Position numbers and translations under genes: made by a program. A model generated the notes under the pieces. The model saw nothing but the letters and a program-made list of their open reading frames with translations, was not told the DNA's origin and did no database searches. A stretch of 64,000 nt of DNA from Lunularia cruciata (taxonomy: Eukaryota > Streptophyta > Marchantiopsida > Lunulariales > Lunulariaceae). The DNA lies in contig OX419758.1 of the NCBI GenBank assembly GCA_948567375.1, positions 46,949,473-47,013,472 of the forward strand. The letters are read 5' to 3'. Shown here piece after piece: positions 12,888-45,263 of the stretch (the first letter of the stretch is position 1; every line of letters starts with the position of its first letter).

Positions 12888-12965
12888 AAGTTGGAGATCA
12901 CCTTTGGTTGGAACATAGATCCGGTCCTCATGGAATAGAAGGCCTTCCTTGAAAGAGAAGGTGTT

Positions 12966-23087: not shown

Positions 23088-23530
23088 TTTCACAACATTT
23101 GCAACACCAAAGCTAATGTGTTTAGATGTTGAAATGTTAGTCTTTGCAATCATAAATATATCAATATTTGCTCAAAGTCTACTTAGTGGCAGCCCGATTT
23201 GTCTTAGAGCTACTGATCATATTGTTGGTGCTATAGTTAGAAACATTTTTTGCAGTGTCAAAGGAGTCATTGGGGTTAGAGTGTTAGGTAGAGTTCAAGG
23301 GTATACCTTTGAAGTCACTTTTGATGTTGAGCAACTCCAAAGAACTCACTTTTGATGTTGGGCCATCAAGTTCCTAGCTATGGTGGACAAAGGCTGGCAA
23401 GCATCACTTAGGGTCTCTTACCTAGAGTGGATGTGGCTTGATAATGTAATCAAAACCTATATGTTGGCAAGATTGAGTTGAGTATGATTCATTTTTAATT
23501 CAAGTTGAGTTGGAGATCAATTGATTACAT
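23088..23530 (+). repeat. 5' LTR-like end of the large gypsy element
   Basis: Collinear with 607-1,054 and 44,735-45,171 (acatttgcaacaccaaagct, the ctatggtggacaaaggctggc block, gttggcaagattgagttgag). The terminal 106 bp seen in the other copies is not found here, so this LTR is incomplete or rearranged. Confidence 0.65.
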
Positions 23531-23534
23531 AAGA

Positions 23535-24900
23535 AGTGATTTTTAATTCAATTTGCGTTGGAGGTATATCCAAGCTTGACAAATCTATGGTGTCTTTGAT
23601 CACAATTATATGATTGTTGTTTGTTTAGAATTGTGTGGATTGTGTGCAAAAGCCCTACTTGATTTGTTCTTGATTTGACAAATTTGTTGGACTTGGTGTA
23701 GAAACGCTCAAACATTTTTACTATTTAGAGTTCTATCCAAGTTTATGTGGAGGTCTAATTTAGAGGCTAATCTCAACAAATCAAGACATTGGGTGTTCAA
23801 TTATGGGGGAGAGATCAATTTAAGCACAAGGAGGCAAAATTGGAGCTAAAGGATGTGAATTGGAACCAAGGTGTAAGGTGGATTTTAGAACACATCCCCT
23901 CAAATTAGAAAATCTTCATCTTCTTAATTGTGCTCAATTTGGCATTTGGAGGAGGATTTGGAGTCAATTAATTGTAGTAGAGTTTCATTAAAGTTGATAG
24001 AAGTCTGATTTGGAGGCTGATCTTGAGAGAGGAAGTATTGAAGGATGGCCATAATTGGAGAGGCATCTAGGAGTCTTGAAGGGAATTTGTGGTCAAGTTA
24101 GTCAAGGTTAGCCAAATTTGGAGAGGGTTTGATTTGGCTCAATTTGACCCAATTTGGCATTTGGAAGTGGATTTGGTGGCCATCCAACTATAGCAAAGTT
24201 TTATCAAAGTTGGTGGAGGTCTTGGAGGCCAACTCAAGGTAGAGCTTATACAAGAGGTTGGCCAAAGTTGGAGAGATATCTTGACGTCTTGGGGGGAGTT
24301 GGTGATTGAGTTAGTCAAGGTTTGCCAAATTTTGAGAAGGTTTGACTTGGTAAGAAAAAAGGCATCATTTGGGCTAAATTTCAATGTTTTGAGGCATAAA
24401 GATATGGGCTAAAGAGGTTAAGAATGCCTAGAAGGACAAGCAAGCCAAATTTTTAGCGTGAGATTAGCCAATTTAGTTAGTAGTATTTTGGCTAAATTTG
24501 TTCATCCTTTAGGCTTATACGCTATAAGGTTTGAACCACAAATCTTTGGTTCCTAGATTGGCGCTCTAGCTAATTGGTCCATCCTCACTTGTTATCCTAT
24601 TGATTGTTAGATTGATACATATATTCATGTAGCTTTGGCTAGGAAAGAATGTTTGATCTCATCCTTGGTAATCTTGGTAACATAAATATAGATAATCATT
24701 CCTATTATGTCAAATGCCAAATGATGACAGAGTCAATCTAGTTTTGATATGTGAGATGAAGTGTTATCATATAGATTTCTTATGATTGGATCTCTTATAT
24801 TCTCTACTTCATATTTGTGCACCATGTTTGTGTGTGGTGCCTAGAATTTAGAGTGTTGGTGCTCAAATGTGCTCTAGATAATGAGATTAGAGTGATGAAT
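23535..24900 (+). other. Gypsy leader with imperfect tandem repeats
   Basis: Non-coding leader. Two units of about 200 bp (about 23,935-24,137 and 24,138-24,354) share tcaatttggcatttggag, agtttcattaaagttg and tagtcaaggttagccaaat words. Confidence 0.6.
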
Positions 24901-24902
24901 TG

Positions 24903-25570
24903 TGAGTTGGCATGTCTCTCATTCAAGATGAACCTTTGATGGCTATTATGGTAGCGCACCATGGACTAAAAAGGCAAGGAACCTCAACTCCATCATCCAA
25001 AGCTAATACTCTAAGATTGCTAACCATTGCTCACTAGAGAACTCAATGAGAGAGAGATAATAGAAAATGAAAAGATGATGAGTACCTCTTCACTCTAGTT
25101 TATATACTTATGAAATAGTTATGTACCAAAGTTACAAATTACAAGAGTAATAGTCAAATAAAGTCAAAAGTTTAAAGGAATATCTATAGTCATGTGAACA
25201 TTTTCCTAAGCATGTTGTCTTATCTTGACCCAATCACTAAGTCAAAGATTCCTTTACATAGACTATCCTTAGACTACAGAAAAATCCAAAGCAAAAAAGC
25301 TTGAGTGTCCAAGAATTCTCAACTCTTTCCTCAAAGCCAAACACCTAGGAATAATACCAAATCAATATATTAGAATCCAAAATAGTGGTGCTCATCTTTT
25401 CCATTTCCTCTAAAGTAAGGTCCTTGCTATCTTAGCTATGATTAACTTTAGCTTAACATGACTAATGTAGAAATATCCTTTATCTCTATATAAATAACAC
25501 CTCTCAAGTACTTATAATACCAAAATAAATATCACAATATCATATACATGCACAAATGGGTGTTATAGAC
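24903..25570 (+). repeat. LTR-like insertion B, copy 1
   Basis: About 670 bp collinear with 42,575-43,275 (ctcattcaagatgaacct near the start, gttatagac at the end). It lies ahead of gag, while the other copy splits the integrase, so these are two independent insertions rather than this element's own LTR pair. Confidence 0.7.
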
Positions 25571-25949
25571 TAGTTAGACTATCTATATTCTCTCCAATGA
25601 GGTAGGACGTAATAGCCTATAGACCATAAGAGTGTATGGTTTGATGGTAGGTTATAGGTTGCCCTTTCTCCTAGTGTAGTTGTCATAGTTAGAGTTACAT
25701 TAGTAGGTAGTGTTTGGTTGGTGGTGGTACTTAGTGGTTGCGGTTGCAATTTGGAGTACATCATCACGACAAAGTTCTTGATGAGTTTTAGAGGAGATCT
25801 TTCTATGATAAATAGTAGGTTTATCTATATAAATGTGTTTGGTATTAGCCTATATTGGTAGTGGCGCTTGGTATCAACCCATATCTCAAGTCCCAACAAG
25901 GGAGGAAATTGATTCTAGTTTGGAGTTTGACATTGGAGTTGATTGAGTT

Positions 25950-27120
25950 GAAATTGCACTTGGTGTGTCTGCATCATTGTTGTGAGACATGGAAACATTT
26001 ATGGGACCAACAAAGGTCCTAGGTACTACTCAAGTAAAGTGGGTACCATTGAATTGGATGACTTTGTATATGAGTTTGATAGTTAGTGTGATCTACAATA
26101 GATGAAGAACCCAACTTTGGTCACACTCTTCATGGCATGGAAGAGATAGTTCTAGCACTTGGAAGGTCCACCAATGGATGACTACCATGACTTCAAAAGA
26201 GCTCACTTGGAAGAGATTGAACATTAGAGATAATATTGGTCTCCAAATTACATCTCTATCACATTAGGCTCAATTTCTAGGGGTAGATCGGTAGTACCTA
26301 TGAGTTCTAGCTCTAGTAGCAATAGCCCTAATGGCCTTAGCAATGTATCCAATGGAGGTGCACTAGTTGGAGGTGGTGCTATTATGAGTGGATGTACCAC
26401 TACAAGAGGTGGTGCAATATCAAGGTTTAATCCCATGGTAGAGTTCTTCCAGTGCTTGAGGCAAAATTACTAAGGAGTATGGGCTAACAAGTTGAAGAGT
26501 TTGCAAGAGTTCTAGTAGAAGGCTATAGAGAGTCTATGCAAGGCATACAATTGCATGAGACATGATGTTACATTGTTGCAAGCTATCTCATTGACTTTGG
26601 CGGTGATTTTTGGTTTCATTGAGCGCATTAAGCTCAACATGGTGGAGGAGAGAGTGGTGACATCTAGGTTTGGTAAAGGGACCTCATCTATCTATCATTG
26701 TTACTTCTTCCAAAGTGTGTTGTACCATGTTGGATTTTGAAGGTAGAATGGATAACACCAATCTTATATGGAGTGAGTGGAGGGCCTAGTACACCTAGAT
26801 CCTTACTCTCACTATTTGGTCAACAACAAATAATGGGTAGTGGAATTGCTTGTTGGACTTGTGGTAGACTTCACCACAAGAGAGAGTGCTCCTAGGGTAA
26901 TAGGCATGATACCTTAGGAGCACCATAGCCAACTCAAAGATAGTATGACCATTATCATATATTTGGTCATACTAGTGATTGATGCTTGGACCTCCACCCA
27001 AAGTTACGGAGTGGTAGGGCTACTATAGTAGGTGGTAGAGGAGCTTCAAGTCATGGAGAACAAGGTGACAAGAAAGGCCCTAAAATTGGTAGGGGCCTTG
27101 TACCTACCCTTTCTTTTTTA
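25950..27120 (+). pseudogene. Gag of the large gypsy element
   Basis: Degenerate Gag: the plus strand reads IELDDFVYEFDS, then DYHDFKRAHLEEIEH, then the zinc knuckle CWTCGRLHHKREC at 26,851-26,889. A second decayed knuckle, HIFGHTSD-CLDLHP, follows near 26,950. Gag coats the genomic RNA in the virus-like particle. Stops are frequent. An open stretch at 27,126-27,353 downstream probably belongs to the Gag-protease linker. Confidence 0.7.
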
Positions 27121-27584
27121 TAGCCATGGCTCCTTGGATTGAGCCATTGGAGCAAAGATTAGCAAGCATGGCTAGAACTCAAAGCAGATCAGATTCAAGT
27201 ATTGAGACTTCCACCTCTTATTTTGGTGATAGAGATGTCTTGGACTTTATGTGCAGAGTAACAAAAGTAGATGCATTTGTTGCAATGAATAAGAGTGCAA
27301 TACATACTCCAAAGCTTAGAGGAGCATCAATGGAGTTGGACCCACAAAGATGAAAGGCTGGTAGATAAATCATACTTCCTTTGCCTTTCACACTCTTTAA
27401 GGCACTCCAAATGACATCTATGGCTCCTAAACATCTAAGTGTAGGTATGGTAGGTAGTGATGGAGTGCATGCCCAATGGGATACTAGTTAGTCACTTGTT
27501 ATTTCATAGATTGGTCTAGTATGATGTTAGAGGTAGCTTAATTGAGTATGCACTCCTCTTTGTTCTCAACTAGTGATATGTTTA

Positions 27585-27672: not shown

Positions 27673-27734
27673 CTTTTTACATTAGGAGTTGATCTAACTC
27701 CAATGTTTTGATTGGTTGTTACACTTTGTGAGCG

Positions 27735-28420
27735 TAGGGATGATGTGGTTTTTGCTTCTAGAGTAGAGGTAGTTGATGGTGAATCTAACTTGGTTGAGGA
27801 GCATGGGATCTATTCAGCTACCAATGGTTTATGGTAGGCAAAAATTGCTAGGCTTGAGAAGTTACCAACTAGACTTGCATTTGAACAAGCTTGGTTTACA
27901 CTTGGAGTTGTCCTATTGGACAACCAAAGTGGGATTTTCTATTTGGTAGGATCTTCAAAGATGGTCTATACACCATAGAGTGTCTTATTAGACTCTTGTG
28001 GGTAGCTCTTTGGGTTAGGAAGGCTACAGTTTTTGGTCTTGGGCTATGAAAGATTGATGTGAAGAGGTGTCTAGTTTAGATCCAAACATATCCAAAGGGT
28101 GGTTTTACACAACACATCATATATGGGGACCTCATTGTCTAAATTTAGCCCAATCATCCAATTGATAGCTCTATTGTAAGGGTTCGGGCCATTGCAATAG
28201 TAGTAGAGTCATTTGATATGCTAGTTGGTGGAGTAATATTATACTCCATGGGTTTTAGTATTGATTATTTGGAGGAGATAAGTTTGTATAGGCTAGGTTG
28301 GCAATAAAGTGAGTGATGCGTATGTTGCCTACTTTTGAGCTTTAATTATGGCAACCTTGGCTCACTATAGTCAAGGACTATGGTATTGGTTTCAACTTAC
28401 AGTGGTTTTGTTACTTGGCT
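27735..28420 (+). pseudogene. Gypsy aspartic protease and linker
   Basis: The plus strand reads VVFASRVEVVDGESNLVEE, then KLPTRLAFEQAW, then LLDSCG near 27,988 (D-S-G active site, frame broken after it). After one frameshift it reads KATVFGLGL. ESFDMLVGGVILYSMGFSID continues to LYRLGWQ at about 28,310. The protease would release the polyprotein parts. The linker leads straight into the methyltransferase. Confidence 0.7.
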
Positions 28421-29139
28421 TGGTGACTTATTGGAGGAGAACACCCATGGGAAGGATATCCAATACCTTAGGAGATCACTTAGATTTGGAGTACAGGTTG
28501 TTCCATCTACCTTAGATGTTCTAATGTGGAGTTTTGAGGAGGCATTGTAGCAACATGTAGATCAATTGGTGCAATAGGTTTGGAGTGGAGCCTTTGTACC
28601 ACCAAGAGACCAATTTAGGGATGAGCCTCTAGAGTCTATTATCTTGTCATCTTTGGATACAACACTTTTTGCTTGGCATTATCTAGTAGAAGGAGTATGC
28701 CTATTGGAATTATTTAGTGGGATTAACATTGGACTAGATGTGGTACTATAGGCAAGCATATGGGTTTAGTGGTACTTTTGTTTGAAGAGATAAGAATGCT
28801 AGGCAAGTCTCTTTACATCATGTAGAACACTTAGACTATTAATATCTTGAGTTATTAACAATATCAACAATCAAGGATTACTAAAAGGCCCCATCAATAT
28901 ACATTTCCTTACTAGGGGCACAAAATGTAGAGAGATATGGTCCCATCCATTTGGTGATTTTTGGATGGCCATGTCAAGGACATACTCATATTGGCCAAAG
29001 TCAAGGTCTATAAGATACTTCTTTTGGTGTGTTTTGGGATATGTTATATATATTATGGCATCTCTATGTTCATCAAGCCATTTCTCTAGCCTACATGTCT
29101 CTTTGATGGATGATTCTTGCACACAATGTTGTGAAGTTT

Positions 29140-30825
29140 AATTTCCAATTATAAGAACACCAGAATCCTTGCTGAATACACCTAGGTTTATTTGGATATA
29201 ATTGCTAATTTGGTTTGATTACTTCTAAACATTCATTATTCCAATAAAATATATTTTAGAAACACTACAATAGTCATAGTTCATAGATCTATTATACTTG
29301 AGATATACTTAAAGAATGTACAACATGTAATGTACATTACGAATATATGAAAGCTAATATGGTGGTCTACATATCCTCACTATCTTAAATTCACTTCCTG
29401 TTATGATGAATTGCCAAATGTGTTCTTTTTTTAACTTGAAATCTTGATTTCTCAATCAATTCAACACAATTAAGAGACTTGAACCATGAAACTCTCTCTT
29501 AAATCTCCAATCTGCAATCCACTCTCTCCATCTACAATTTTGCTTCATTCTCATAATCTATATCTCAATTTGTAATCCAATTACTAAGAAATATTTGATC
29601 ATCATAATTAAAATCTTAAATTCTATTCTATAATTCCTAATCTTAGAAGCCTAATCACCATAATTAAAACCCCTTCCATTGTAAAATCATGTAAAACTTT
29701 AGCAATTATTGTTTAGAATTCTTCATCCATAGTTGCCTTGCTTGAAAATGGCTCACTACTTGAGCCTCACTCCAAAGAAAGAAATAAAGAACCACAAACA
29801 ACCTTCCCAAAAACTCCTAGGGCAAGTTGTGCCAACTCTTTAAATACCAAGAACTAACATAAGTGGACAAGTAAAAGCCAAGTGACATGCAAGAAGGCAT
29901 ATAGATACCAAGTGATAAGCTATGGGAGAACCAAGTATGGGAAACCAACACAATGGGAAGTTGGGGAAACCAAGGTACAAGAAACGATGAAATTCAAATA
30001 GTCGTAACTTCCTTTCTAGACCTTTGTTTGCCAAAATTTTAGTACCAACAAAAAGCCCTTAAAAAGTTGCTTCCAATGAAGTAAAAGCACACACTTCTTG
30101 GACTAGTATCCATGGAGAATTAGCCCTTGCCAATTGCTTTGTGAGAAGTGATTGTGGGAAGCAATTGTGGGATCTGACTATGGGACTCCATGCAAGATTT
30201 GACTATGAAACTCTCATTGTAGGACACCTTATGGCATTTGGCCTATGAGAATCAAGTTGAAGAAGAGAAGTACCTTCAATTGGTCATAACTTCTTCTTTA
30301 GATTTCAATTTACCATGATTTTGGTGTTTGCAAATAGCTCTTGAGAGGACATTTCCAACAAAATGAAGCACTCTATGTTTGGATCAATATTTGCAAAGAA
30401 ACTAGCTTTGATATGAATTGCAGGATTCTTACCAAATGTTTTATGGAACTCTCACTATGGATCTCCTTTGGGACTCATAACTTCTCTAGAACTCTATTTG
30501 CAATAATTTTGGTGTCTACAAAAAGATCTTGAGAAGATATGTCCAACAATATAGAACATTCTTTGTTTAGACTAGTCAACCTTGTTATGAATTGCAAGAT
30601 TACTTGCCAAATGCTCTAGAAAATTTGACTATGTGTTGCACTATTAGATCTAATAGTTTAGCCCATAGTTTAGTCTATAGTAGACTAGTCCATACTAAGC
30701 CCGTAGTAAGCCTTTAGTAGATCTTAAGAGAACATTATAGAACTTGAGAGAAATTATATTGAAACATATTAGAAACTTTTTAATAAGTAAGCAACCCACT
30801 TCATTACAATGGATAGTGGCAATTA
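29140..30825. mobile_element. Unidentified insertion inside the methyltransferase
   Basis: Separates the PCQ half from the motif VIII-X half of the methyltransferase. It contains about three degenerate units of 170-200 bp between 29,995 and 30,640 (cataacttcttctttaga, tttggtgtttgcaaatagctc, aggacatttccaaca). These words are common in LTR or leader regions of plant retroelements. No coding domain. Boundaries are approximate. Confidence 0.5.
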
Positions 30826-31227
30826 CACATCATATCTATTATTAGATGGGACCTATCACGTTGTTGGATGCGGCCAAAGTTGGATCACAAGGTCATCATT
30901 TTTGTCTTTGGTGGACAAACTTCTTACCTAAAGAGGTTTTACAATGACAACATGCTTGTGAATGGATTTAATGGCTAGCCTACCTTATTTTTAATGATGT
31001 TTTGGATGGTGGTTACAAGTCTCAAGTGGTAGTGGCTGATAAGTCACATATGGTAGTGGTGAACCTTGTCAAGCAACCAAGAGCCACTTTACTCACACTC
31101 ATGAGGTTCCCAAGCTCCCATTCTTTTTGAGAGGGAGATCTTAGACTTTCTTGGGACTCATAGTTATAGCAACTAGTGGAGCTCAACACCAATGAGAGAG
31201 AGAGCAAGCAATAGGTTTCTATACCTA

Positions 31228-31230
<3 letters not shown>

Positions 31231-31267
<37 letters not shown>
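31231..31267. repeat. (ATT)n microsatellite
   Basis: About 12 units of att, inside the methyltransferase C-terminal coding region, between the ERE-AIGF and HQVLNQAIDL segments. Confidence 0.95.
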
Positions 31268-31521
31268 TTAGTAATGTCAAATGTTTTGAAGCATCAAGTG
31301 TTAAATCAAGCTATAGACCTAACTATTTGATCAGGATTGTGAGCCTTGGATTAGCTTAGAAAAATAAGATGCACTTGATAAACATCAATACTTGGACACT
31401 TGTGAGCTCTATGTCTATTGAGATGATTCAAGCACATGGGTGATGGACCAAGTAGGCATGGTATTCTTGGGACATAGCCAATGGATACTAGTGAGAGTGG
31501 TCTACTCAGTGTATATCCAAG

Positions 31522-34500
31522 TGTAACAGCCCAATAAGTATCACTTTCATGGTAATCAACAAGTAACAGTTTGTACTCATAGAGATGCAATTCAAAAATG
31601 GTCAAATATAAAGTAAAATGTAACAATTAGTGCTTCTTGGTTGTGTCTTTAATCTCTCAAGAGAAACCACATCCAAAAGAGAGAAACAAGCACTAATTGC
31701 AATCTTGTCACAAATCACAACACTCATAATCACACTTCATCCAATTCTATCCAAATCAACTTCAATTATGATTATTCAATTCTTCTGAAGAAGGCTACTT
31801 CACAAAAAAATGACTCTGACTCAAAATTGTGTTCAACACTCCACTGAAAGCACAACTTCCTCAATCAAGATTGATTTGCATCAATACAATGTTGCACTCA
31901 CAATAGCATAATACTACCAACACTACAATTCCTCTGAGATCTATCAAGGCATTGCTTTGATTGCTATCCACTCAAAATCAAACGCATAGAATGAAATCAA
32001 CACTATAAAATCCAACATCCAACTAGCTCACTGATTTTCACTTCAAATTTCTCCCAACACTCATCAACACACACCAAGGATTAATACTCAAAATTAAGTT
32101 GAAATGACAATCACTAAGTTACAACACTTTGCTTTACTCAACCTAAAAATTTTAGTACTAAATAACCAAACACTAAGAATGTCTCCTTTAAATAGGTAAA
32201 GCATTGATAGTTATTTAACTAAATACCATTTCCTAACAATCTCCAGGTCCAAAATGGCAACACACTTCTTCATATCTATCAATTCAAATCTCAAATTGGT
32301 TATGAATCCAATCCGATGTCTACTTCTTATTCTTCTAAACCCAAGGTCACTACACCCAAGGTAACTTACTTTGTATCTTGTACTTTGGGTCTATATATAA
32401 CTGCTTTTTCTTCTTCTAATTCTATCTTTTCTTCAATCTAAACTAAAATTGAGGTCATGAGTAGTTTATCTACATCTTTATTCTCTAACTCCATCTCTTC
32501 TAATGTCTCAAGTAACTCACACAAAGACACTTGCACTCCTACTTCACTTACTTTGCATCAAGTTTCCTTCTTCCTTTTACTCCAAAGCTCTTCTAACTCA
32601 CTTTTAGCTAAATCTAATATGGGATAAACATTATCTCATACTTCTAACATCTTCCTATCTACCCGATCTCTCAAACAAAGAAGATTGTTCAAGCTGACAT
32701 CCTTTGCCTTCTTCTTTCTTATCTCTTGCACTAAGAATCTCAACTTGTGCACTCTTGCTTCCTCCAATTGAACTTTAGTCACAATACGAAGCATCATTCT
32801 TACCTCCACAATCACTTCAATTTTTGTCTCTGACTGTCTCTTCTTTTCTTGCTCTCTCTCTCTCTCTGCTCGCAACTCCTCTCGATACATTTGCAACTCC
32901 ATGTCAAACTTTGCTTTCTATGCTTCCTTCTCCTTCATATATTGACCAAGTTGAGCTTCTATGCTTTTGATCAACCATCTTAATATTTCTTCTTCTTGAC
33001 TTCTTATTGTCAATTCCTGCTGCTAGGCTTGATCCTTCTCTCCTGCCTTTGACTTCAAGCTCTCAAACTCTTGCTCCATTACAACTATGATGGCTTTCAA
33101 ATGTATGACTTCAACTTGTCCTTCATTGAATTCAACCTGCAACTTCTCAATCAACGTCTTATGCTTCCTTGTTTCTTCTGATTGCCGTTCAATCTCCTCA
33201 CCGTGTTTCAAAAACTCTTTATAGATTATCATAATTCATCCTTCAAAGTACTTCATCCACCCAGAGTACTTTGGCTTCCTCCTCACCTTGGGCTAGCTTC
33301 TTCTTCAACTCCAAGATCTCTTCACTCCAATATCTTTCTTCAGCTCCGCCTTTTGCTTTTGCAATTGCAATAGCAATGGACATTAAATCTTCAACAAGTA
33401 TGTTATTCCACCAACACCCACCGCTTTGTTATTTTCTCTGTACTCAACTTCAACATGCTCTTGTTCTATGGGTGCCTTATCCCAAAGTCTTGATCTTCTC
33501 ACCTTCAAAGTTACTTCTTTTGAGCTTTCTTTATCTTCCTTAGCTTTAATCTTCTTACTCCATCCTGCAGATGCAAGCTATAAACTTCTCTTTGTCCTTG
33601 TCCCTCATTGGAATACCAACTTTGGCTCCTCTTCTTGGTGTTCGTCATCTATCTCCACCATAGGTAATTCCATATAGGGAATGTCTCCACCTTCCATATA
33701 ATCAAGACCATATAGAATTCCTGATCTTCTTCTTCAGCATCTTTTTTCTCCATCTGCTCAACTTTGGGTTCTCCATCACTCCCACTGCTAGATTCTCTAC
33801 TCTACAATGTGAGCTTTTCTTGTCTTTCTCCTCCCAAGACCTCACGCTTCTACTCAATTTCTCCTTCTAGTGATAGCATTTATTTGGGGCAATTCCACTT
33901 CTTTGTCTTTAGAATGATCACCACAACTTCCTTGTTTTGTCCCGTCCTAACAAAGTGGTCATTGCTACCTCTGACTTGCCAGATGTATTGTTGCTCTTTT
34001 GCATCCGCCTCTCTCTACAAATTTGGATGAAAGTGAAAAACCATCTTTTGTCTCTCTTAGCAAATTCAACCCAAGGTAGAAATGTGCTGCAAATAGCACA
34101 AAGTAATGAGGTAATGATTTTTCTCTCTAGTTCTAGATCATTTTCCTTGTTCATTTGTGGAAGTACTTCACCCCATTCATTGCTTCTCCTACAAACATTT
34201 GATGATAGAAAATTGCATGGTGCTTCATTAAGTAGGTGGTTCTCTTGGGCTTGAAGATTGTTGTCATTGCCCCAGCAATACTTTGTCTTATTGGGTCTTG
34301 ATAGGTATCCACCTTGTAGCCATTCTTTGTACATAGAGCATTGAAGGAATTTTGCGCTTTTGTGGTCTCTTTTATAGACTCTCCCTTCCCATAAAATTTG
34401 ACTTTGGACTCCTCACTAGCCTCTTTCCTCAAGACTAATCTCCAATCCAAATTTTTCCATCAAGATGGATTGCCTCTCTTTCTCTCTTCCTTAGGACAAT

Positions 34501-35242
34501 CCTTGCAATTACTCATAGCTATTTTACCCATGAAACCTAGAAAACTAAGTTCTAGTTCCGAGCTAAAAAGGTGATCCAAAGTCTACTCAAGACTTCAATC
34601 CTTGCTATGACATCTAGCCTCCAAACCATAGGATTCCTCATTGCAAATGGGGCACTCTTCTTCCTGCCCTCATTGGCATCATGTAATTTCTAACTCTAGG
34701 ATATTGGAAAAATATTCCCTTGCTTGGGCACAAAATCATCACTCCCTTTGGATTCTTGAAAATTAAATTCTTGGCTTGCTTCTTGATATAAATTCCCATA
34801 GAAAAACTACTCAGTAGCACAGTATACTTGTGTGAGATTTTGAGAATCCCTTGACAAAGTGTTAACCTTATAGTGTTACAATGTGCGGTCATTCCTTAGT
34901 CACTCTTCAGTTGATAATCATGCCTTTTGCATGCATTCCTCTCGTCACTATCAATTTTATCATGCTCATGACTTAGCCTTTCTCTTGATTGTATGTTCTT
35001 CAGCACCCAAAGGAAAATTGTTACTATACCTTCACATTGGGTTGATCATTTCAAGGCAAAGTTTCAATACTTCAGGTTTAACACTTGACAAGTGTGATCC
35101 AAGTTCTCCTTTCCTTAACACAAAGTAAGCGTCTTTGAGTCTGATCCCAAGACATGATTCTCCTTTTTTCTTTGCCATTATGGTTCAATTTGACTTCAAC
35201 TATACACTTCTTCTTTAAAATACAATAAAACCAAAAATACCA
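31522..35242 (-). mobile_element. Unrecognised element with a coiled-coil protein, inserted between methyltransferase and RT
   Basis: Boundaries TG (31,522, TGTAACAGCCC) and CA (35,242) are flanked by GTGAG[AC]GTGGTCTACT on both sides (31,490 and 35,244), a direct repeat of at least 17 bp. On the minus strand are open stretches at 34,450-34,151, 34,334-33,918, 33,232-33,023 and 32,902-32,636. The last two are charged, heptad-like sequence (EELRAEREREQEKKRQ), predicted coiled coil. The upstream ones contain TTYLMKHHAIFYHQMFVGEA. I do not recognise the family; a Gag-like or transposon-encoded structural protein is possible. Confidence 0.45.
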
Positions 35243-35454
35243 AGTGAGCGTGGTCTACTTGGGTTACACTCTTGGGATGCACCTAGAGGACATGAGGAGC
35301 TTGCAGCCATAGTAGGAGGAGTTTCTTGCTCTAAGGTTAGGGACTCTAGTGGTTGGAGGTATGATATTACTACTCCTAAGACCCTAGCATAGCAACCAAT
35401 CATTGCATCTTCCACTCCTACATGAATTATAGTGGATACTTGGAAGCTAGGCAT

Positions 35455-36005
35455 TGGACCTAAGCTTACAAGTGGGAAAAGAAAGAGAGTTTGGAGGTTA
35501 TTGAGGAGCTATATGAGTTGTTTTTCCTCCAATATGAAGGAATTTTGGGTGCTTTGAAAGGACTCGGTATTCAAATTTAGTTGATAAGTAATACACAATT
35601 TTCTTAATGTCTTATAAATATAGTGACATGGAGAGAAGATTGATTGAAAGCTAGAGTAGAGAGACCTTTTTGAGGTTGGTTTGGTGAAGATTTCACATGG
35701 AAAGTATGCTTCAACTATAGTGATGCCAACCAAGGTTGATATGCATGGCAACTACATAGATAGGTAGATGTGTGGAAATTACCATCCTATCAACCAACAA
35801 ACTAGGGCTAATTGGTATATTATGCCTACACCATATAAGATCTTTTATACAATTGGGTATGCAAAGGTCTTCAACTTTTGATCTTTGAGCAAGGTATCAT
35901 TAATGTCCAATCAAGGAGACAACATTTTGGGCTATTGATCCTCACAACAAGGATGTATAATATCATTGGAGTTTCTTAACTTTTGGATTAAATAATGCTC
36001 CTACC
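35455..36005 (+). pseudogene. Gypsy reverse transcriptase, N-terminal part
   Basis: Decayed RT start: LTSGKRKRVWRLLRSYMSCF, then SHGEY-like and DANQG pieces, CGNYHPINQQTR, MPTPYKIFYTIGYAKVF and AIDPHNKDV-YHWSFLTFGL, ending NNAPTK at about 36,005. A LINE then interrupts it and FIDDILVMKEHERHL resumes at 40,600. Roughly 15-17 codons between NNAPTK and FIDD are missing. Confidence 0.75.
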
Positions 36006-36418
36006 AAGTCCAAAAGTCAGGACAAGATCCAAGGAAGATTGGATTTTGCTTGGTGCTATATTGATGTTTACCATTGAATACTCTAGAGGCCATAACTCCA
36101 TGTATGTTAGCTCAAATGAGTTCATTTTTAGTTCATTTGAAAGAGGTACTCAAGAGCTTTTGATTAAGTCATCAATTTTAGATTTTGAAGTACTGTAGCC
36201 AAGGTCGTTTCAAGGCGCCCTTCCACTCAGAATAAGGTTGTGAATTTTTGGAATCTGTAGGAAAGTTTCAAATTCAAAAGTTTGTAACTTTTGATTTTCA
36301 AGTCCAAAGGAGTAGAATTTTGGTTCATGAGAAAAAGTATTTGTAGAGCTATTGGTTTTCACAGAGCCTGAGTGAACCAGAGGATACATTCTCATAGTAT
36401 CTTTTTAGAGCTTTTAGA

Positions 36419-37258
36419 ATGGAAGCTTCCAAGATGATGCAAGACATTGCTGAGATAGCTTCAAAACAACAACATCTTGTTGAAATGTATAGAAAAGCAA
36501 ATGATTTCCACAAGGAACTCAAGAGCTTTTTTGCTCCCATGTCTCAATGCATGAACACTCTTATGGCAGATTTGCAAACCGTAATAGCTGATGTCTTGAC
36601 TGTGAAAGAATCTCTGAATTTGATCACCGTAGATATCCAAGAACTCAAGAAGAGTAGCAATTTGATGTTAGACTCCACAAAGGGTATGGTGGATGCTACT
36701 GAGAAGGTTGCTTCCTTGGGAGCACAAGCCACCAACATTGCTTCACAAAATGGAGAGCTACAAGAGATGGTTAACACACAAGAGGTCAAGATGAAGTCAT
36801 ATGCTGAAGCTACTAAGGTGGCTCAAATCTCTTACTTGCAAGAGCATGAGGTTGAGAAGGAGAACCAATTTGTCAGAATGAAGAACTTGACGATTTCAGG
36901 TTTGCCAGAGACTGAGAAGGAAGACACCAAGGCCATAGTGTGTGAATTTATTGTTGATTCTTTGAGAGTCCATGATCCTCAGATTTTGCAAGCATATAGA
37001 TTGGGACAACAAGGTGCACAACCAAGAAGCATTTTGGTGAGGTTTGGCTCAAAAACTCAAAGGAATGCAGTGATGGGGAACAAAGCTATACTAAAGGGGC
37101 GGCGTATCTGGTTGGACCCTGATCTCACACCTCTCCAATGGCAAGCAAAGAAGGGAGAATTAGCAAAAGTGAAGGAGGCTCAACAAGCAGGTTTTGTTGC
37201 ATTCTTGAGAGATAATAGAGATGTGATTACTCAAAAGAAATTGTTAGCTACTACATAG
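36419..37258 (+). CDS. LINE ORF1 RNA-binding protein (intact)
   Basis: 279 codons uninterrupted from ATG to TAG. The first 150 residues are heptad-rich coiled coil (trimerisation). From about residue 165, LTISGLPETEKED, then AYRLGQ, RSILVRFGSKTQRNAV and LDPDLTPLQWQAK form the RRM-like core and C-terminal domain of L1 ORF1 proteins. These coat LINE RNA and act as nucleic-acid chaperones. It is the only uninterrupted retroelement ORF of this length between 9 and 47 kb. The ATG choice suits the coiled-coil start. Confidence 0.85.
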   Translation: MEASKMMQDIAEIASKQQHLVEMYRKANDFHKELKSFFAPMSQCMNTLMADLQTVIADVLTVKESLNLITVDIQELKKSSNLMLDSTKGMVDATEKVASLGAQATNIASQNGELQEMVNTQEVKMKSYAEATKVAQISYLQEHEVEKENQFVRMKNLTISGLPETEKEDTKAIVCEFIVDSLRVHDPQILQAYRLGQQGAQPRSILVRFGSKTQRNAVMGNKAILKGRRIWLDPDLTPLQWQAKKGELAKVKEAQQAGFVAFLRDNRDVITQKKLLATT

Positions 37259-37289
37259 CAATTCAAGACACTTAGAGTGCTATTTAGAA

Positions 37290-40200
37290 TGTTCATGGGC
37301 TCACACATACCAAGTACTCCAATGCTGAGCCTTTGTGGGATGATGCTAATCTGATCAATCTTGTGGAGACATGGGAACATGAAGGAAACACCATTCAAGA
37401 TATTGAAGGATTCACTCTTGTTGGTTCAACCTGGAACAAGCGGAGGCAACATAGAGGAAGAGGCTTTGGAGGTATTGCTACTTATGTCAGATTTGGCTTT
37501 GAAGAATCAGTCTCTTTGATAGGTCAAGATTCAAGTGGACAATACCAATGGTTGAGGATTGGAGGAGTTGCCACACCTTGCTTCATTGCTATTTGTTACT
37601 TTGCCCCATTGATAGCACCAATCTATTCAAGTGGAGTTCTCAACACCATGCAGCCTATCCACTCCTTGACGTGTTAGAGGAGTGGATAGGCTGCATGTGT
37701 TAGAGTTTCAAAGTAAAGGTGCAGTACTTGTTCTTGGTGATTTCAATGCTAGGATCCAAGCCTCTCAGATCCCTGAGTTGAGTGGCCTTGAGAATGATCC
37801 TTTCCATAGCTTGATAGACCATTCTAGTGCTTGGTCAGGCTCTTCCAAAGATCCCATGTCCTACCCCATGAGTGAGCACTTTTTGAGCTTTGGTGGCAAT
37901 TGTAGCTTGTAGCTTGAATGGCCTTTCTCAATTTCTAGAAACTTGTAAAAGCACATGCTTTGCCTCAGGTGGATCAAGCACCGTAGATTATATGCTCACT
38001 TCAACTAATGATATCCATCTTGTCTCAGATTTTTTGTTTTAGATCCTCAACCAGAATCAGACCATGCACCTCTATCTTGTACCATCCTTCTTCCTTGCCT
38101 CAATAGAACCACATTACCTATTGACCATGCCTTTAGAGGCAAACTTTGTCTAGATTTTCACAAGAGAGACTTGTACCAACAAGCTATCCAAGAGAAATTG
38201 TGTTCTATGGAGTGGAGTTCTGATTTTCAACAACGTAGTGATCAATTGGTTGAACTTCTTCAATATGCATCAACTTCTTTGTTTCCAAGAGGCTCTCACA
38301 AGAAGAGACTTGGTCTCCCTTGCAATAGGTGGTATGATGCTGATTGTAAAATGGCAAGGATCAAAGCTATAGATAGGTCTCTTGATCAGATTGCACAAAA
38401 TCAGGCCTTTGTTTCATATAGAAAGTTGGTGAAGAGCAAAAAGCGAGCATTTTTGAGACTCAAGGAAGTTGAGTTGAGCATTGAACTGACTAGCAATCCC
38501 AAGGCTTTTGGAAGAAGGTAACCATCAGATCTCCATCTCCATTGCTGGACCTGAATGAGCTTTGTGACTATATGAAGGATCTGTACTTTTTCCCTAATGC
38601 TCCAAGCATGGCACCTTGCCTTGGATCTGCTCTCACCATCTCTGAAGCTGATGTCAAGTACCAATTGAAGAAGTTGGCCAATGGTAAGGCTGAAGACCTT
38701 GATGGACTATGTGTTGAACTTCTGAAGTGGAGCGGTAGCCAACTGATTTCAGTACTCACTTCTCATTTGAATGAGGCAATCAAGTGTGGCTTTCCTGATA
38801 GATGGTGCTTCAAGAAGGTAGTTCCTATTCACAAGTCTGGCCAGAGAGATGTTGTCACCAATTACCGTACCATACTTGTTGGTAGTGTCTTTGCCAAGTT
38901 GTATGGTCAAATTTTGGAGTCTATTTTGAGCACTTGGGCTAAAAAGTACAAAATTCAAGCTAAGTGCCAAGCTGGTTTCAGATCAGGCTTTAGTACTTTG
39001 GATCATCTATTGGTACTCCATGTTTTGTGGTGGAAATCTAAGGGTGTTGGGAGAGCTCTCTATGTTGCATTTATTGATTTCAGGAAGGCCTTTGATAAGG
39101 TGTTGAGGAAATCTCTAAGTGAGGGACTCACTCAAGTGGGTGTTTCAGCTGATCTGATTGGTGCTATCTCTAGACTCTATGAGAAAGTGATTGTGAAACT
39201 TTCATTTTTGAGCTCTCAAGATGTCCTTAGCACAATGGGTGTGATTCAAGGTTTCTCTCTATCTCCAACTCTATTTGGAATCTTCATTGATGATCTGGAG
39301 ATTCTACTCATGGAAGCTGGAGCTATAGGTGTACAGGTTGGCTCTTTGATGATACATGCACACCTTTATGTAGATGATGTAGTGCTCCTCTCCACAAATC
39401 CACAGAGTTTATAGAAGTTATTGGATTCTCTTTGTTGCTTTTGCAATCAAACAAAGATGGAGGTGAACCTTGACAAGTCCAAGATGATTGTGGTGGGTTC
39501 TAAAGGTGTCACACCTTTCTTTTTCAATGGACAGCAATTGGAGAAAGTTTCTTCTTATAAGTACTTGGGCCTTGAGTTTTCTCATGACTATAGCTGGTCT
39601 ACTTGTGTGAAGATGAGAATCAATGCAGGCTTTAGAGCTTTGTATTCACTCATGAATTGCTCTAGACTTGCTCATCTTACCACATGGGAGTTGAAGAAGG
39701 TGTTGTTCAGATCTCTTGTGCAGCTGGTGGTTCTCTATGGTCCTCAGATTTGGGGTCCAGGTACTAAGAAGACATGGTGGCAAAAGGTGGAGAAAATTCA
39801 GAAATTGTTTTTGTGTGATGAACTTGGAGTGAGGACTCAAACTCCTTATGTATTGCTGCTTGCTGAAACTGGATTTTTGCCCCTTGAGGCTGAAGCTTTG
39901 TTCTTGGCTCTCACATATGCCACTAAGGTGAGGTCCATGGAGCATGAGAGACTTCCCTACCAAGCTTTTTGTGCCACTCTATCTATTGGTTGGTATACAG
40001 ATCTGATTTCATGGGCCACAAGGTGGAATATTCCTGAGCAACATTGGAGATTGGAGCCTATTGCACTTCGAGAGGTGATCAAGGAGCAGTTCTTATTACA
40101 CTTATGACAGCAACCCGGTACCAAGATGGTGTTCTATCAACAGTTTGTAAATCCTATGTTGGTGTATTGTGAGCAAGATTATCTCTTGGCTAGGATTCTA

Positions 40201-40440
40201 CTTCACTTAGACATGTTATTGCTCAATATAGAACTAGTTCTCATAGACTAGAAGTAGAACAAGGGCGTTGGCAGCAGATAGAGCACTCCATGCAACTTTG
40301 CAAATTGTGTACTATGAGCAAAGTTGAGGATGAGCACCATGTGTTTGTTTATTACCCTTGTTACATGCAGATCAGAGTTAGACATCAGATTACTTGTAGT
40401 GATTTCTCAACTCTCCTACAGGTTGAAGCTTTGGCATAAG
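37290..40440 (+). pseudogene. LINE ORF2: APE endonuclease, RT, zinc knuckle
   Basis: Endonuclease: NVHGL, LINLVETWEHEG, VLVLGDFNAR (about 37,735) and ESDHAPLS (about 38,060). RT: KVVPIHKSGQRD, AFIDFRKAFDKV, GVIQGFSLSPTLF and the catalytic LYVDDVVLLS (about 39,366-39,395). After a stop at 39,412 the frame resumes (39,421-40,107: NLDKSKMIVVGS, YKYLGLEF). The C-terminal knuckle LCKLC with EDEHHVFVYYPC follows near 40,300. Breaks occur at about 37,675 (palindrome), 37,912, 38,519, 39,412 and 40,105. Few lesions, so a relatively recent insertion. Confidence 0.85.
37647..37697. repeat. Perfect 20-bp inverted repeat in LINE ORF2
   Basis: Arms 37,647-37,666 (CATGCAGCCTATCCACTCCT) and 37,678-37,697 are exact complements with an 11-nt loop; pairing extends outward four more bases past one bulge. 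The endonuclease frame is lost here. It looks like an inverted duplication of the downstream arm. Confidence 0.9.
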
Positions 40441-40590
40441 GGAAGTATATGATAGACATTAGTTTACATCGGACCAATTTGTTACAGATTGGTCAGATGC
40501 CCTAGGCTTTGGCCTAGGCTCACATTTCATATGTTTTGTATTGTATTTCCAGCCTTTTGACTCTTTGGGTCTTCCGGGCTTTATATTTCA

Positions 40591-42570
40591 TTGTTCATTG
40601 TTCATTGATGACATTTTGGTCATGAAGGAGCATGAAAGACATTTGTTGAGTTGTTTGAGAGATTGAGATCTCAAATACTCAAATTACTTCTTGGGAAATG
40701 TAAATTCTTCCAGGAGTAGGTTGAGTATTTGGGTCACACTATCTACCTTGGTGGACTTGATGTTCAACAAACCAAGGTGAAGGCTATTACATCTATTCTT
40801 CAACCCAAAAATGTGAGAAAATTGCAAGCATCCCTTGGATTGGCAACCTTCTATCATTGATATGTTAGATTTAGTGTGATTGCCAAGGCCTTGACAAAGC
40901 TGACCAAGCTTACATAAGAGTGGTGTTGGAAAGATGTGCAAGAGAGAGCTTTCATAGAGCTTAAGGAGAGGTTGACATCTCCCCTATTCTCAAGAGAAAG
41001 ATCAAAGGACCACCATTCCAAGTTCATATTGATTAGAGTATGTTAAAGCTTGGAGCATTGCTCACCTAGCAAGATGGTGAGGAGAAGGAATTGTGGTGGA
41101 TTATGCTACTCATTCCAACAATTCAGCAGAGGTGAAGTAGAGTTCATATAAGAGAGAGTGCTTGGTAGTAGTGTGGGTAGTAATGCATTTTATTTAGCCT
41201 ATTTGGTAACCCTTCACTCTCATCACTAATCATCAACCATTGAAGTGGTTGATGGAGTCAAACAAGCTTTCAAAGAAGCTTGCATGATGAGCTCTGATTT
41301 TATAAGAGTATGATTTCATGATTATTCATAGACCTAGAATGGTGAACCATGATGCAAATGGATTGAGTAAAAACCCATGTCTTACTTAACCAATAGAATT
41401 AGACCGGAGCATGTTAGCATGGTGAGATAGATGGATAAATGGTGCAAATTTGGCATGCCTCTACCTTCTATATATGTTTTTTGAAGTTCTAATGGTATCT
41501 CTCTCAATACAAATAGGAGGAGTTGTTGAGTCATAGATCCAAAGGGCAAAAATATTAGTATAGGTCAATGAGACATTTGTGATGATATCTTAGTGATAGA
41601 TTATCTTTGCATTGGTATTGTGGGTGGCATAGTTGGTGCCAAGGAGAAAGACAATGTCCTTTAGCAAGCCATGCAATTTAGATTGGAGGATAGTAGAGTG
41701 CAAGTAGTACCACTTCCACCTCAAAGACCACAATTGGTAGGTCGTGCTCATGAGAAGCTAGGATATTTTGGCGTAAAGAGTACATATAGCTTACTCTAGA
41801 GTCACTATTGATGGTATAGGATACATATCAATATATAGTAGCTTTTTGCCAAATGTGTGGTCAAATGATCAAATACAAAATCATTTAGTGCTTCCATGCC
41901 ATAATTACACCTCTTACTTATCATAGGATTAGATTACCGCTAGAGTTTGGACTTTACCATTGATTATGAGATATCATTGGTATGTTTTGGTTATGGTGGA
42001 GCACTTCTCTAAGTGGATTGAGTTGGTGGAACTTCTTGACAAGTCCATTGAATGTACAAGTTACTCATTCTTGGATTGGGTTATTAGTCATTTTGTTCAC
42101 CAATTGAGGTTATGACTGATCAAGATATAGAGTTCTTGGGAGAGTTTTAGGTCTTGTGTAACAAGACCTTGATTTATCATTGTACTACCTCTCAAGATCA
42201 TCCTAAGGTAGATGGCTTAATAGAGAGAGTGGTTCAGATGATGAAGAAAAGATTGCATAAGTATGGGTTGTAGAGAGACCACTTTGGAGATTAGGATCTC
42301 CAATTACCTTGGTTGACCATGGGCTATCAATTTATCCAGCAAGCCTCCTTAGAATCCTTCTCTCCTTACTTTCTTCTTTATGGAAAAGATCCAAATTTAC
42401 CTATAGCTATTTATCATGATATTATTGTAATTTTGGACTTAGATGATCTGAAGGTATGGCTGAGGGTATGTTCTTAACATGCATAGACCTTTTGGAGAGT
42501 GATGACCTTTAAAAAACTTAGCCATTGCTCAACATAAGGATGCCTTACATTATGCTACTATTTGAGGAGG
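40591..42570 (+). pseudogene. Gypsy RT C-terminal part, RNase H and integrase core
   Basis: FIDDILVMKEHERHL (RT catalytic box, 40,600), then YLGHTIYLGGLDVQQTKVKA and LQASLGLATFYH. RNase H: YATHSNNSAEVK-SSYKRECL, NHQPLKWLMESNKLSKKLA and IHRPRMVNHDANGLSKNP (about 41,100-41,380). Integrase: RAHEKLGYFGVKSTYSLL (zinc-binding end), VMVEHFSKWIELVELLDKS (about 41,970) and LAIAQHKDALHYAT (about 42,520). Many stops. The integrase C-terminal domain continues beyond insertion B at 43,280. Confidence 0.8.
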
Positions 42571-42574
42571 GAAG

Positions 42575-43275
42575 TATAGACCTATGAGTTGGTCTGCCTC
42601 TCATTCAAGATGAACCTCTGATGGCTATTAAGGAAGCACACCATGGACTAAGAAGGCAAAGAACCTCAATTCCATCACACTCCTCCAAAGTTAGAATTCC
42701 AAGGCACCACCAAGACTCAAGATATTGCTCACTAGAAACTCAATGAATGAGAGATAGTTGCAAATGAAAGGATGATGAGTACCTCCTCACTCCTAGCTCA
42801 TATACTTGTGAAAAGAGTTACTAATTACTTAAGTAACTCAAGTTACTCGGCTAAAAGTCAAATAAAGTAAAAGTCTAAAGGAATATCTAAACACATGGGA
42901 ATAATCCCATGGGTAGGTGGTTTTATCCTCACCTCCCAACTAAGGCAAGGATTCCTTCACATAGGCTATCCTTTGGCTATAGAAAAATCTGCACCAACAA
43001 GACTTGTAGGCCCAAGAGTTCTCAACTCTTTCCTCAAAGTCAAATAAGTAGGAATAATACCAAGTCCATGCACTAGAAGAAAAAATAGTGATGCTTACTC
43101 TTTTCCCTTCCTCTAGAATAGGATCACCTTCACCTTAGCTAGGACAAACTCTAGCTAATCATGACTAATGTAGAAGCTTAGCTAAACTCCATAGATAATA
43201 TTTCTCCAATACTTGCAATACCAAACTTAATATTCCTATAGAGCATACATGCATCAACGTATGTTATAGACCATA
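42575..43275 (+). repeat. LTR-like insertion B, copy 2
   Basis: About 700 bp collinear with 24,903-25,570. It splits the integrase between KYRP and IHQLHIGNYVYL. TATAGACC occurs on both sides (42,564 and 43,267), which could be an 8-bp target duplication. However, copy 1 also has tatagac at its right end, so this may be part of the insertion. Confidence 0.65.
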
Positions 43276-43399: not shown

Positions 43400-44145
43400 T
43401 GTAATGCCAAGAGCTAGCCATATGATCTAGATGTGAAATTTGGTTTGGTAACATCTGGAATGATGTTATACATGATGGAAAAATAGATCAAATAGAAGAA
43501 TCACCAAAAGAGTACTTCTACTAATAGGGCAAAAATTGAAATAGACTTGAAAACCTTAGAACCAATAGCTAGACATATGATTTAAAGGTGAGAATTGATT
43601 TGGTAACATCTCAAAGTATTTTCACATGATGAAATAAATAGATCAGAAAGAGGTATCACCAAAAGGAGACTTCTACTAATAGAGTAGGAAGCAAAATATG
43701 CCTGAAATCTTTGAAGGCAATTTTGGAGGCCTAAACAGATGAATTAGGCCTCAAATATGTGCACATCCTCCCTCCACCCCCCTCTCATAGACAAAAGGCT
43801 ATCCTTCCCTTCCCCTTACTTTGTCTCATCTAGAGCTTTCCAATGGTACCTCACCCACGTGATTTTGAGATTCCTACAAGAAGATTCTCTAAAAGATTCC
43901 TTCCGGTCACATCTTATTTGACCAACCAGATAGGACCAAGACTGACATGTCACCCATCCAAGTAAGTAATCCAAGGGTGGAGCTTTCTAACATGTCACCT
44001 ATCTATGTACCTAATCCTATGGTGGAGCTGCTTTAGAGGAGATCCTCTTTGTCTATGTAATAAAGAGAAGGTGCTCCTTTGGAGCACTGGAGGATTGAGT
44101 GTGAAATCTATGTTTTCTCTCTTCTCTTGACCTTGGAGTATTACA
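43400..44145 (+). mobile_element. Solo LTR in the gypsy integrase
   Basis: 746 bp, TGTAATGCCAAG at the left and CTTGGAGTATTACA at the right, so the ends are inverted repeats with TG...CA. A polyadenylation-like aataaag lies near 44,060. It contains an internal tandem duplication of about 150 bp (43,410-43,555 and 43,560-43,705: agctag.catatgat, tttggtaacatct, caccaaaag.g.acttctactaatag). It interrupts the sequence seen uninterrupted at positions 12-75. Confidence 0.75.
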
Positions 44146-44201
44146 CTATAGGCCACACTATCTTGAGATTGCACAAGGTTTTCCTTTTGGAGTCCTTATG
44201 T
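44146..44201 (+). repeat. 56-bp direct repeat, right copy
   Basis: Starts exactly after the LTR's terminal TTACA and repeats the target sequence. Confidence 0.85.
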
Positions 44202-44734
44202 TGGAAGGACATGATGGTCTTATTTGGAAGGATCATGTGCACAATTGTACACACATGTCACCTCCTAAACATTAATGGCAATATGGACCCAAGCTTGGTT
44301 GTTGTACATATTGGCTTGAAGTGTATGTTGTGTGGCTCTACTAATGGAACCACTTCTATGTTGGTGTGTGATAGTTCTTTGAGAGGATTGCATTTGGTAT
44401 GCTTGACTCCTCCTCTCATGATGATTCCTCAAAAACAATGGCTATGTTGTTGATGTACTTGACCTATAGTGAGTTCATTCTTTATGTGATATAGATTTCA
44501 GACAAGCAACTAACAATGGGTCTCAATAGCACTTGGCCTCCTAATCTTGCCCACTATAGGCCATATCACATACTTAGAGTAGATGGCTATTTGGAGTTAG
44601 AGGAACCTAACCACCAACTAAGGGGCAATTATAGCACTTTGGAGTTTATTTAAGACTTTTGTATAAGTTGTGCTTCTATAGCATATGATGCTGATATTGA
44701 TATATGTTGTGTACTCATGTATACTCATGAAAAT

Positions 44735-45263
44735 TGTCATGACATTTGCAACACCAAAGCTAGTTTGCTCAAACATTGGAATGTTAGTCTAGGTAGTCAT
44801 AGTTATATCAATAGTTGTTGAGAGACTTCTTAATGGCGGCCAGATTTTGTGTTAGAGCAATAGTCATGCCATTAAAGCTACAATAAATCACACCATTTGC
44901 ATTGTCAGATGGGCAATCAGCAATGCCATTAGGGTTGGAGTGCAAGGTCAAGTCCAGGGAGTAGACCTTTGAAGTGCAGCTCTAGAGAGCTCACTTCTTG
45001 ATGTTGAGCCTTTGAGTTCTTAGCTATGATGGATAGAAGCTAGCAAGCATCACCTAGAGTACCTTACCTAGAGAAGGAGTGGCTTGATAGTGTAATCAAA
45101 GCCTATTTGTTGGCAAGATTGAGTTGAGTGTGATTATTTTTTGATTTGAGTTGGTTGGAGATTGACTAATTATTGTGGCTCTTTATAGTTTATGTATGAG
45201 TTGTGCTTCTATAGTATATAGTGCTGAAAACAATTTTTGTTTTGTAGCAATGGATATATGCAC
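44735..45263 (+). repeat. 3' LTR of the large gypsy element
   Basis: Starts TGTCATGACATTTG and ends near GCACTACC, collinear with 607-1,161. It is preceded by a copy of its own last 106 bp (44,628-44,733). The flank beyond it returns to copia coding sequence. Confidence 0.7.

Follow-up and report, generated by a model that had tools for sequence, protein, structure and literature searches.

Retrotransposons that carry a DNA methyltransferase of the DNMT3 type are a known kind of element. As an earlier note on the DNA studied here stated, such enzymes have been reported in dinoflagellates and charophytes. A DNMT3-bearing Gypsy element in Klebsormidium nitens, together with DIRS and LINE ones in Symbiodinium, is described in the accessible text of de Mendoza 2018 (PMC5890265). 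According to the same text KnitGypsy-Dnmt3 of K. nitens encodes an intronless DNMT3-type methyltransferase (MTase), free of the rearrangement found in DRM enzymes, within a Gypsy polyprotein, combines DIRS-like terminal repeats with Gypsy domains, is stated to be under purifying selection and has fewer copies than the Symbiodinium elements, while de novo CG methylation was demonstrated for retrotransposon DNMTs, with SymbioDIRS named (PMC5890265). In its accessible part a 2025 survey gives one sentence to DNMT3s in retrotransposons of streptophytes and dinoflagellates, naming Copia and DIRS (PMC12344493). We analysed a stretch of 64,000 nucleotides from the liverwort Lunularia cruciata (contig OX419758.1, positions 46,949,473 to 47,013,472; hereafter the window), in which the earlier note, made from the sequence alone, had proposed a Ty3/Gypsy retroelement with its own C5-cytosine methyltransferase. 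That reading is supported, and the element belongs to a high-copy Ty3/Gypsy-type family whose identity and architecture we regard as practically certain: frame 1 encodes Gag, zinc knuckles, a protease and a DNMT3-type MTase and is followed by a UAG and then by reverse transcriptase (RT), RNase H, integrase and a PHD finger.

Within the window the interval 28.56-31.37 kb consists of two halves of a C5-cytosine methyltransferase, with the protease upstream and the RT downstream, all in one decayed Ty3/Gypsy element. The features named in the earlier note are in place: motif I (LLELFSGINIGL) at about 28,700-28,740, the PCQ loop (GWPCQGHT) within 28,885-29,010 and the later MTase parts at 30,813-31,440, flanked on the same strand by the protease (27,673-28,146) and the RT (35,610-36,065 and 40,636-41,093). 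A profile search of this region gave no Pfam MTase family in any of 10 pieces and one weak zinc-finger match (E 0.49), because decay and frame breaks hide the domain in single pieces; the comparison was therefore made by tblastn with the whole MTase domain of a better-kept copy in L. cruciata. C5-MTase homology was found in both halves, at 59.8 % identity over 107 amino acids (126 bits) and 55.7 % over 131 amino acids (136 bits), while the tblastn maximum among 100 dinucleotide-preserving shuffles of 3.1 kb was 23.5 bits. The old element spans approximately 23.26-45.27 kb on the + strand with both ends traceable, and is collinear from Gag to the PHD region when open reading frame 1 (ORF1, 1,428 amino acids) and 966 amino acids of ORF2 of the better-kept copy L011 are aligned to the window. 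Its parts are as follows.

23257..23512, + strand: remnant of the left terminal repeat A1 (blastn against the A1/A2 repeat of other copies, 70-78 %)
24317..25738, + strand: 5′ internal region in two blocks, 24317-24898 and 25568-25738 (blastn of copy L013 against the window, 73-78 %)
25848..27467, + strand: decayed Gag region (tblastn, ORF1 52-620, 54-64 %)
27673..28146, + strand: decayed aspartic protease region (tblastn, ORF1 658-805, 50 %)
28677..29097, + strand: first half of the MTase, from motif I through the PCQ loop and further (tblastn 28677-28799 and 28777-29097, up to 60 %)
29123..30815, no strand: other DNA of about 1.7 kb that splits the MTase (gap between aligned blocks of L013)
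30813..31440, + strand: second half of the MTase and start of the linker (tblastn 30813-31202 and 31321-31440)
31524..35239, no strand: second stretch of other DNA, about 3.7 kb (gap between aligned blocks)
35390..35392, + strand: TAG in the position of the conserved in-frame stop; the next letters, CAACCA, fit CARYYA (alignment and letters, TAG CAACCA at 35,390-35,398)
35610..36065, + strand: first part of the RT (tblastn, ORF2)
36067..40603, + strand: LINE-like RT stretch of about 4.5 kb nested in the element's own RT (gap in the element alignment; RVT_1 at 38542-39414, 5.3e-18)
40636..41530, + strand: remaining RT (40,636-41,093) and RNase H (tblastn, ORF2)
41530..42583, + strand: integrase with H2C2 and DDE core (tblastn, ORF2 473-838; Pfam on better-kept copies)
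44145..44459, + strand: C-terminal region with the PHD finger (tblastn, ORF2 862-966; PF00628 in better-kept copies)
44628..45266, + strand: right end with split direct repeats, B1 at 44628-44723, A2 at 44735-45160 and B2 at 45172-45266 (blastn)

The old element is thus interrupted by stretches of 1.7, 3.7 and 4.5 kb plus some shorter ones, and its reading frame is broken many times. Losses of C to T relative to L011 in the first MTase half affect 10 of 17 CG, 13 of 28 CHG and 11 of 67 CHH positions, with the same lean towards CG and CHG over CHH in the other window stretches examined, a decay which looks like that left by host methylation and silencing. Two further Ty3/Gypsy remains lie in the window. 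Positions 1-1161 are the 3′ terminus of another copy of the MTase element, much younger than the first and 94.6 % identical to L013; it includes B1, A2 and B2 and terminates in GCACGACA. On the minus strand at 12205-14347 is a different Ty3/Gypsy pol, the RT of which is approximately 32 % identical to that of the MTase element.

Across the L. cruciata genome the PCQ motif of the MTase has 3,659 matches (1,824 + 1,835; ≤ 3 mismatches), the YIDD motif of the RT 4,693 (2,369 + 2,324; ≤ 3 mismatches) and the MTase-RT junction 1,151 + 1,144 (≤ 2 mismatches), the reversed controls giving 0 in each case; RT-motif matches exceed those of the MTase motif. If all 3,659 MTase matches were full copies of 9.9 kb their share of the genome would be about 36 Mb, which is a rough guide only, since truncation may affect many of the copies and old ones such as that in the window may escape the count. 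A PF00145 profile search of the genome yielded 123 scored matches among 2,161 candidates, and from these 123 we drew a sample of 32 copies, well-kept ones first, which leans towards well-kept copies. In all 32 the MTase continues up to the point where the RT frame begins, the junction being the same throughout, which speaks against a separate host gene. The claim that the MTase lies in frame between protease and RT holds for these relatives, with a TAG before the RT, but not for the window copy itself, where the frame is broken and the MTase is split. Likewise the better-kept copies anticipated in the earlier note do carry Gag, protease and MTase in one frame followed by the RT, only with an in-frame TAG dividing protease and MTase from the RT. 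They also have an LLDSGAQ protease motif at ORF1 762, and the first MTase half of the window is 79-82 % identical to 39 other listed copies.

Searches beyond this genome returned 48 long and 1,729 shorter relatives. Those listed (all 48 long and the best 120 of the 1,729 shorter ones) include Marchantia polymorpha, M. paleacea, Calypogeia fissa, Sphagnum, Closterium and many metagenome proteins; no K. nitens name is among them, although Closterium is present. A distant relative, L055, is a 9.2-kb contig that is filed as a ‘Synechococcales’ metagenome genome and yet holds an element of eukaryotic type. Its ends overlap by 45 bp, and it could represent either a circle outside the chromosomes or one that repeats produced during assembly. 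P0053, labelled Obscuribacterales, looks like the same mis-filing. Two layouts were identified. In the first, shared by L. cruciata, L055 and the Closterium protein P0047, the order is protease-MTase-RT; in the second, found in all seven proteins checked (P0026, P0028, P0029, P0037, P0039, P0040, P0045) and so far only in metagenome proteins whose hosts are not named, it is RT-RNase H-MTase-integrase, while P0050 has the MTase first. With two exceptions, P0050 and the Closterium row, whose placement is poor, these layouts track the MTase tree. The PHD finger stands at the C-terminus of the integrase in the L. cruciata copies and in L055. Past its PHD finger P0029 continues with an extra stretch in which the motifs DPWAGTGTI and TSPWF occur and which weakly matches D12 N6-adenine methyltransferases (E 0.017), and P0045 shows letters similar to those of this stretch; going by these motifs P0029 would perhaps hold two DNA methyltransferases in one retroelement. 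The Sphagnum MTase is nested within liverwort elements in the trees (97/90 for the fork with Marchantia), a placement that could reflect moss-liverwort horizontal transfer or old families.

Gag-protease-MTase and RT-RNase H-integrase-PHD share one frame in the better-kept copies, with a single TAG between them. All 32 sampled copies have this TAG at the junction, in 30 of them followed by CARYYA, and by eye 100 exact junctions listed, all from one contig, comprised 97 TAG, 2 TAA and 1 TTG. In L055 a Gag-protease-MTase frame of 1,162 amino acids is followed by TAG CAATCA and then by 1,047 amino acids of RT-RNase H-integrase-PHD. UAG-CARYYA is the type I readthrough context of tobamoviruses and others, as given in the accessible text of PMC5382211, and the arrangement belonging to it, UAG then CARYYA with the frame open on both sides, is found here and in L055 too. 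Readthrough at the junction is thus predicted and, in our estimate, probable. With the UAG-CARYYA conserved the MTase belongs to the Gag-side product and would be expected at Gag level.

The retroelement MTase is DNMT3-like in motif order and fold, with DNMT3A/B as its top matches by sequence and by fold. Its motifs follow in canonical order (motif I, PCQ, EN, HRxR, ERERAMGF, LGQAMD), so that the earlier note was right to set it apart from plant DRM enzymes, an identity we rejected since DRMs place motifs VI-X before I-V; a DRM-like locus of the same genome (L002) has the rearranged order. PCQ and EN are retained in 7 of 7 aligned MTase sequences, and in the trees a 100/100 branch separates the 23 and 19 retroelement-type MTases from host DNMT3s. 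The host DNMT3-like locus is separate (exons in L001), has relatives carrying PF11926, and its exons have their nearest named relatives in Marchantia, Riccia and Calypogeia. Bryophyte host DNMT3s (MpDNMT3a/b and orthologues) accordingly share catalytic family and motif order with the retroelement enzyme but differ from it by separate locus and tree position. Two scans of IMG/VR gave no relative of the MTase element, and among the named rows of a viral structure library C5 MTases from phages, large viruses and ranid herpesviruses predominated, with nothing nearer.

Between the L. cruciata element and L055 identity rises along the polyprotein from Gag (26 %) through protease (43 %), MTase (52 %) and RT (64 %) to integrase (66 %), while the linker behind the MTase is not alignable. 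Nonsynonymous divergence (dN) of the MTase from L055 is 0.46 and synonymous divergence (dS) 2.35, which is near saturation; dS was not computable for RT and integrase. Within the genome the ratio of nonsynonymous to synonymous MTase changes relative to expectation is 1.06 for singleton changes, which look neutral, and 0.61 for shared ones, which look constrained, and the linker is without sign of constraint. Among the 32 sampled copies the catalytic motifs are kept in 31 (PCQ), 32 (ENV) and 24 (HRLR). We consider it probable that the MTase was active while the element was active.

The ends of the element combine split repeats of DIRS type with integrase-type insertion, as described for the K. 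nitens element; neither these repeats nor the C-terminal PHD finger had been noticed in the earlier note. Five of six elements are complete in the arrangement A1 (about 449 bp)-ORFs-B1 (107 bp)-A2-B2, the sixth having a truncated A1, and all six have TGTC...GACA ends and, by eye, 4-bp target-site duplications (GAGG, TTTA, CATA, TAGC, ACTC, TCTT). In the five measurable elements the two members of a terminal repeat pair are 0.5 to 2.2 % divergent, so the insertions of these elements are fairly recent. At the right end of L009 (G000:C6:23476127-23477540) the repeats stand in tandem, B1-A2-B2 followed by another B1-A2-B2. Two complete long terminal repeats are absent, the left repeat being without the 107-bp B part, and inspection by eye gave no clear transfer RNA (tRNA) primer site behind A1; the ATCAGAG found there could presumably pair with the acceptor stem of the initiator tRNA, but the CCA end misfits. 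Split direct repeats are shared with DIRS elements, a class we rejected because the element has an rve/H2C2 integrase instead of a tyrosine recombinase and makes 4-bp target-site duplications. The order protease-RT-RNase H-integrase, TG...CA ends and a short target-site duplication are those of Ty3/Gypsy.

The element is accordingly of the KnitGypsy-Dnmt3 kind, with a canonical DNMT3-type MTase, a polyprotein with RT, RNase H and DDE integrase (divided by the TAG between MTase and RT) and DIRS-like repeats. It differs in its host lineage and in the thousands of motif matches in L. cruciata, and is set apart from the text description of KnitGypsy-Dnmt3 by an MTase that, together with Gag, precedes a UAG-CARYYA stop and by an integrase with a PHD finger at its end; the accessible text of PMC5890265 is without the words PHD, read-through, readthrough, CARYYA and Marchantia. 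SymbioDIRS-Dnmt3 and SymbioLINE-Dnmt of dinoflagellates likewise are retroelements with a DNMT, and occur in two domain orders, but are tyrosine recombinase DIRS or LINE elements arising from independent capture according to the text available (PMC5890265). A literature search of open-licence texts, outside which most subscription papers lie, brought up no description of liverwort members, of the UAG-CARYYA junction or of the PHD tail.

The explanation we consider best, with a probability of roughly 0.6, is that Gag-protease-MTase is made by way of the leaky UAG and that the MTase, freed in the particle, methylates the complementary DNA (cDNA) of the element before integration. Most ribosomes would halt at the UAG to give Gag-protease-MTase, while a minority would read through and add RT-RNase H-integrase; the protease would then release the MTase within the particle at an abundance near that of Gag, many molecules per particle being predicted from its Gag-side position. 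There it would methylate cytosines of the new cDNA, CG being the best-guess context from the tested dinoflagellate relative, and the methylated copy would enter the genome looking like host DNA. That self-methylation is the main function of the MTase we hold to be plausible at slightly less than even odds.

Several observations count against this explanation. Residues 985-1,428, from MTase to junction, are free of in-frame stops in only 8 of the 32 copies. The selection signal from singleton and shared changes is a weak one, Fisher p being 0.039 with all sites and 0.10 when CpG-type sites are left out, and stops show no depletion among shared changes (13, as compared with 10 among singletons). 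Conservation of the TAG within the genome stems mostly from descent within a young family, so that the evidence that counts comes from L055 and the old window copy alone. The window copy, the sole old copy examined, shows silencing-like decay, and its MTase thus did not prevent silencing.

Among the alternatives the one that survives best, though unlikely, is that the targets of the MTase are other elements, or host DNA or chromatin around the integration site, so that it shapes landing sites while the PHD tail reads chromatin. The PHD finger ending the integrase in L. cruciata and L055 would suit such a role, as would the MTase between RNase H and integrase in the second layout, but in the clade of L. 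cruciata and L055 the MTase sits in the Gag-side product and not beside the integrase. Somewhat less likely again is a counter-defence decoy that would compete with host de novo methylation or misdirect it, its own catalysis being secondary; the element did attain thousands of copies, but a pure decoy would need neither the PCQ and ENV kept in nearly all 32 copies nor the PCQ and EN of the seven aligned sequences, and the old window copy decayed from C to T at CG and CHG nonetheless. That the target is RNA, either the genomic RNA or a tRNA primer, has been raised for LINE-type relatives in the accessible text of PMC5890265 but is improbable here, as DNMT3 is the best match in both sequence and fold, with DNMT2-type chains a long way behind by sequence. 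An accidental fusion, or the capture of a host gene by a single copy, could draw on the broken and split window copy but is refuted by the 3,659 PCQ-motif matches, the same linkage in every sampled copy, the relatives in Marchantia, Calypogeia, Sphagnum and Closterium and the host DNMT3-like and DRM-like loci lying apart.

Bursts of Ty3/Gypsy elements account for most of the genome growth of L. cruciata according to the available text of Linde 2023 (PMC9985172), which is without the words ‘methyltransferase’ and ‘DNMT’, and the MTase element may put a name on one driver of this published expansion. Joined with pre-integration methylation this leads to a wider picture, which we put forward tentatively and with the odds against it as a whole. 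A land-plant retroelement would make a de novo MTase at capsid-protein level through a tobamovirus-type leaky stop, package it and pre-methylate its cDNA, and so would have reached thousands of copies and helped to double a liverwort genome; the MTase would have shifted within the polyprotein, from protease-MTase-RT to RT-RNase H-MTase-integrase or the reverse, and may have crossed between mosses and liverworts. DNA methylation is one of the main weapons of plants against such elements, and here is a lineage that carries a methylating enzyme itself and has kept it over deep divergence. Why retroelements carry DNMTs becomes directly testable in land plants, including relatives of the genetic model Marchantia.
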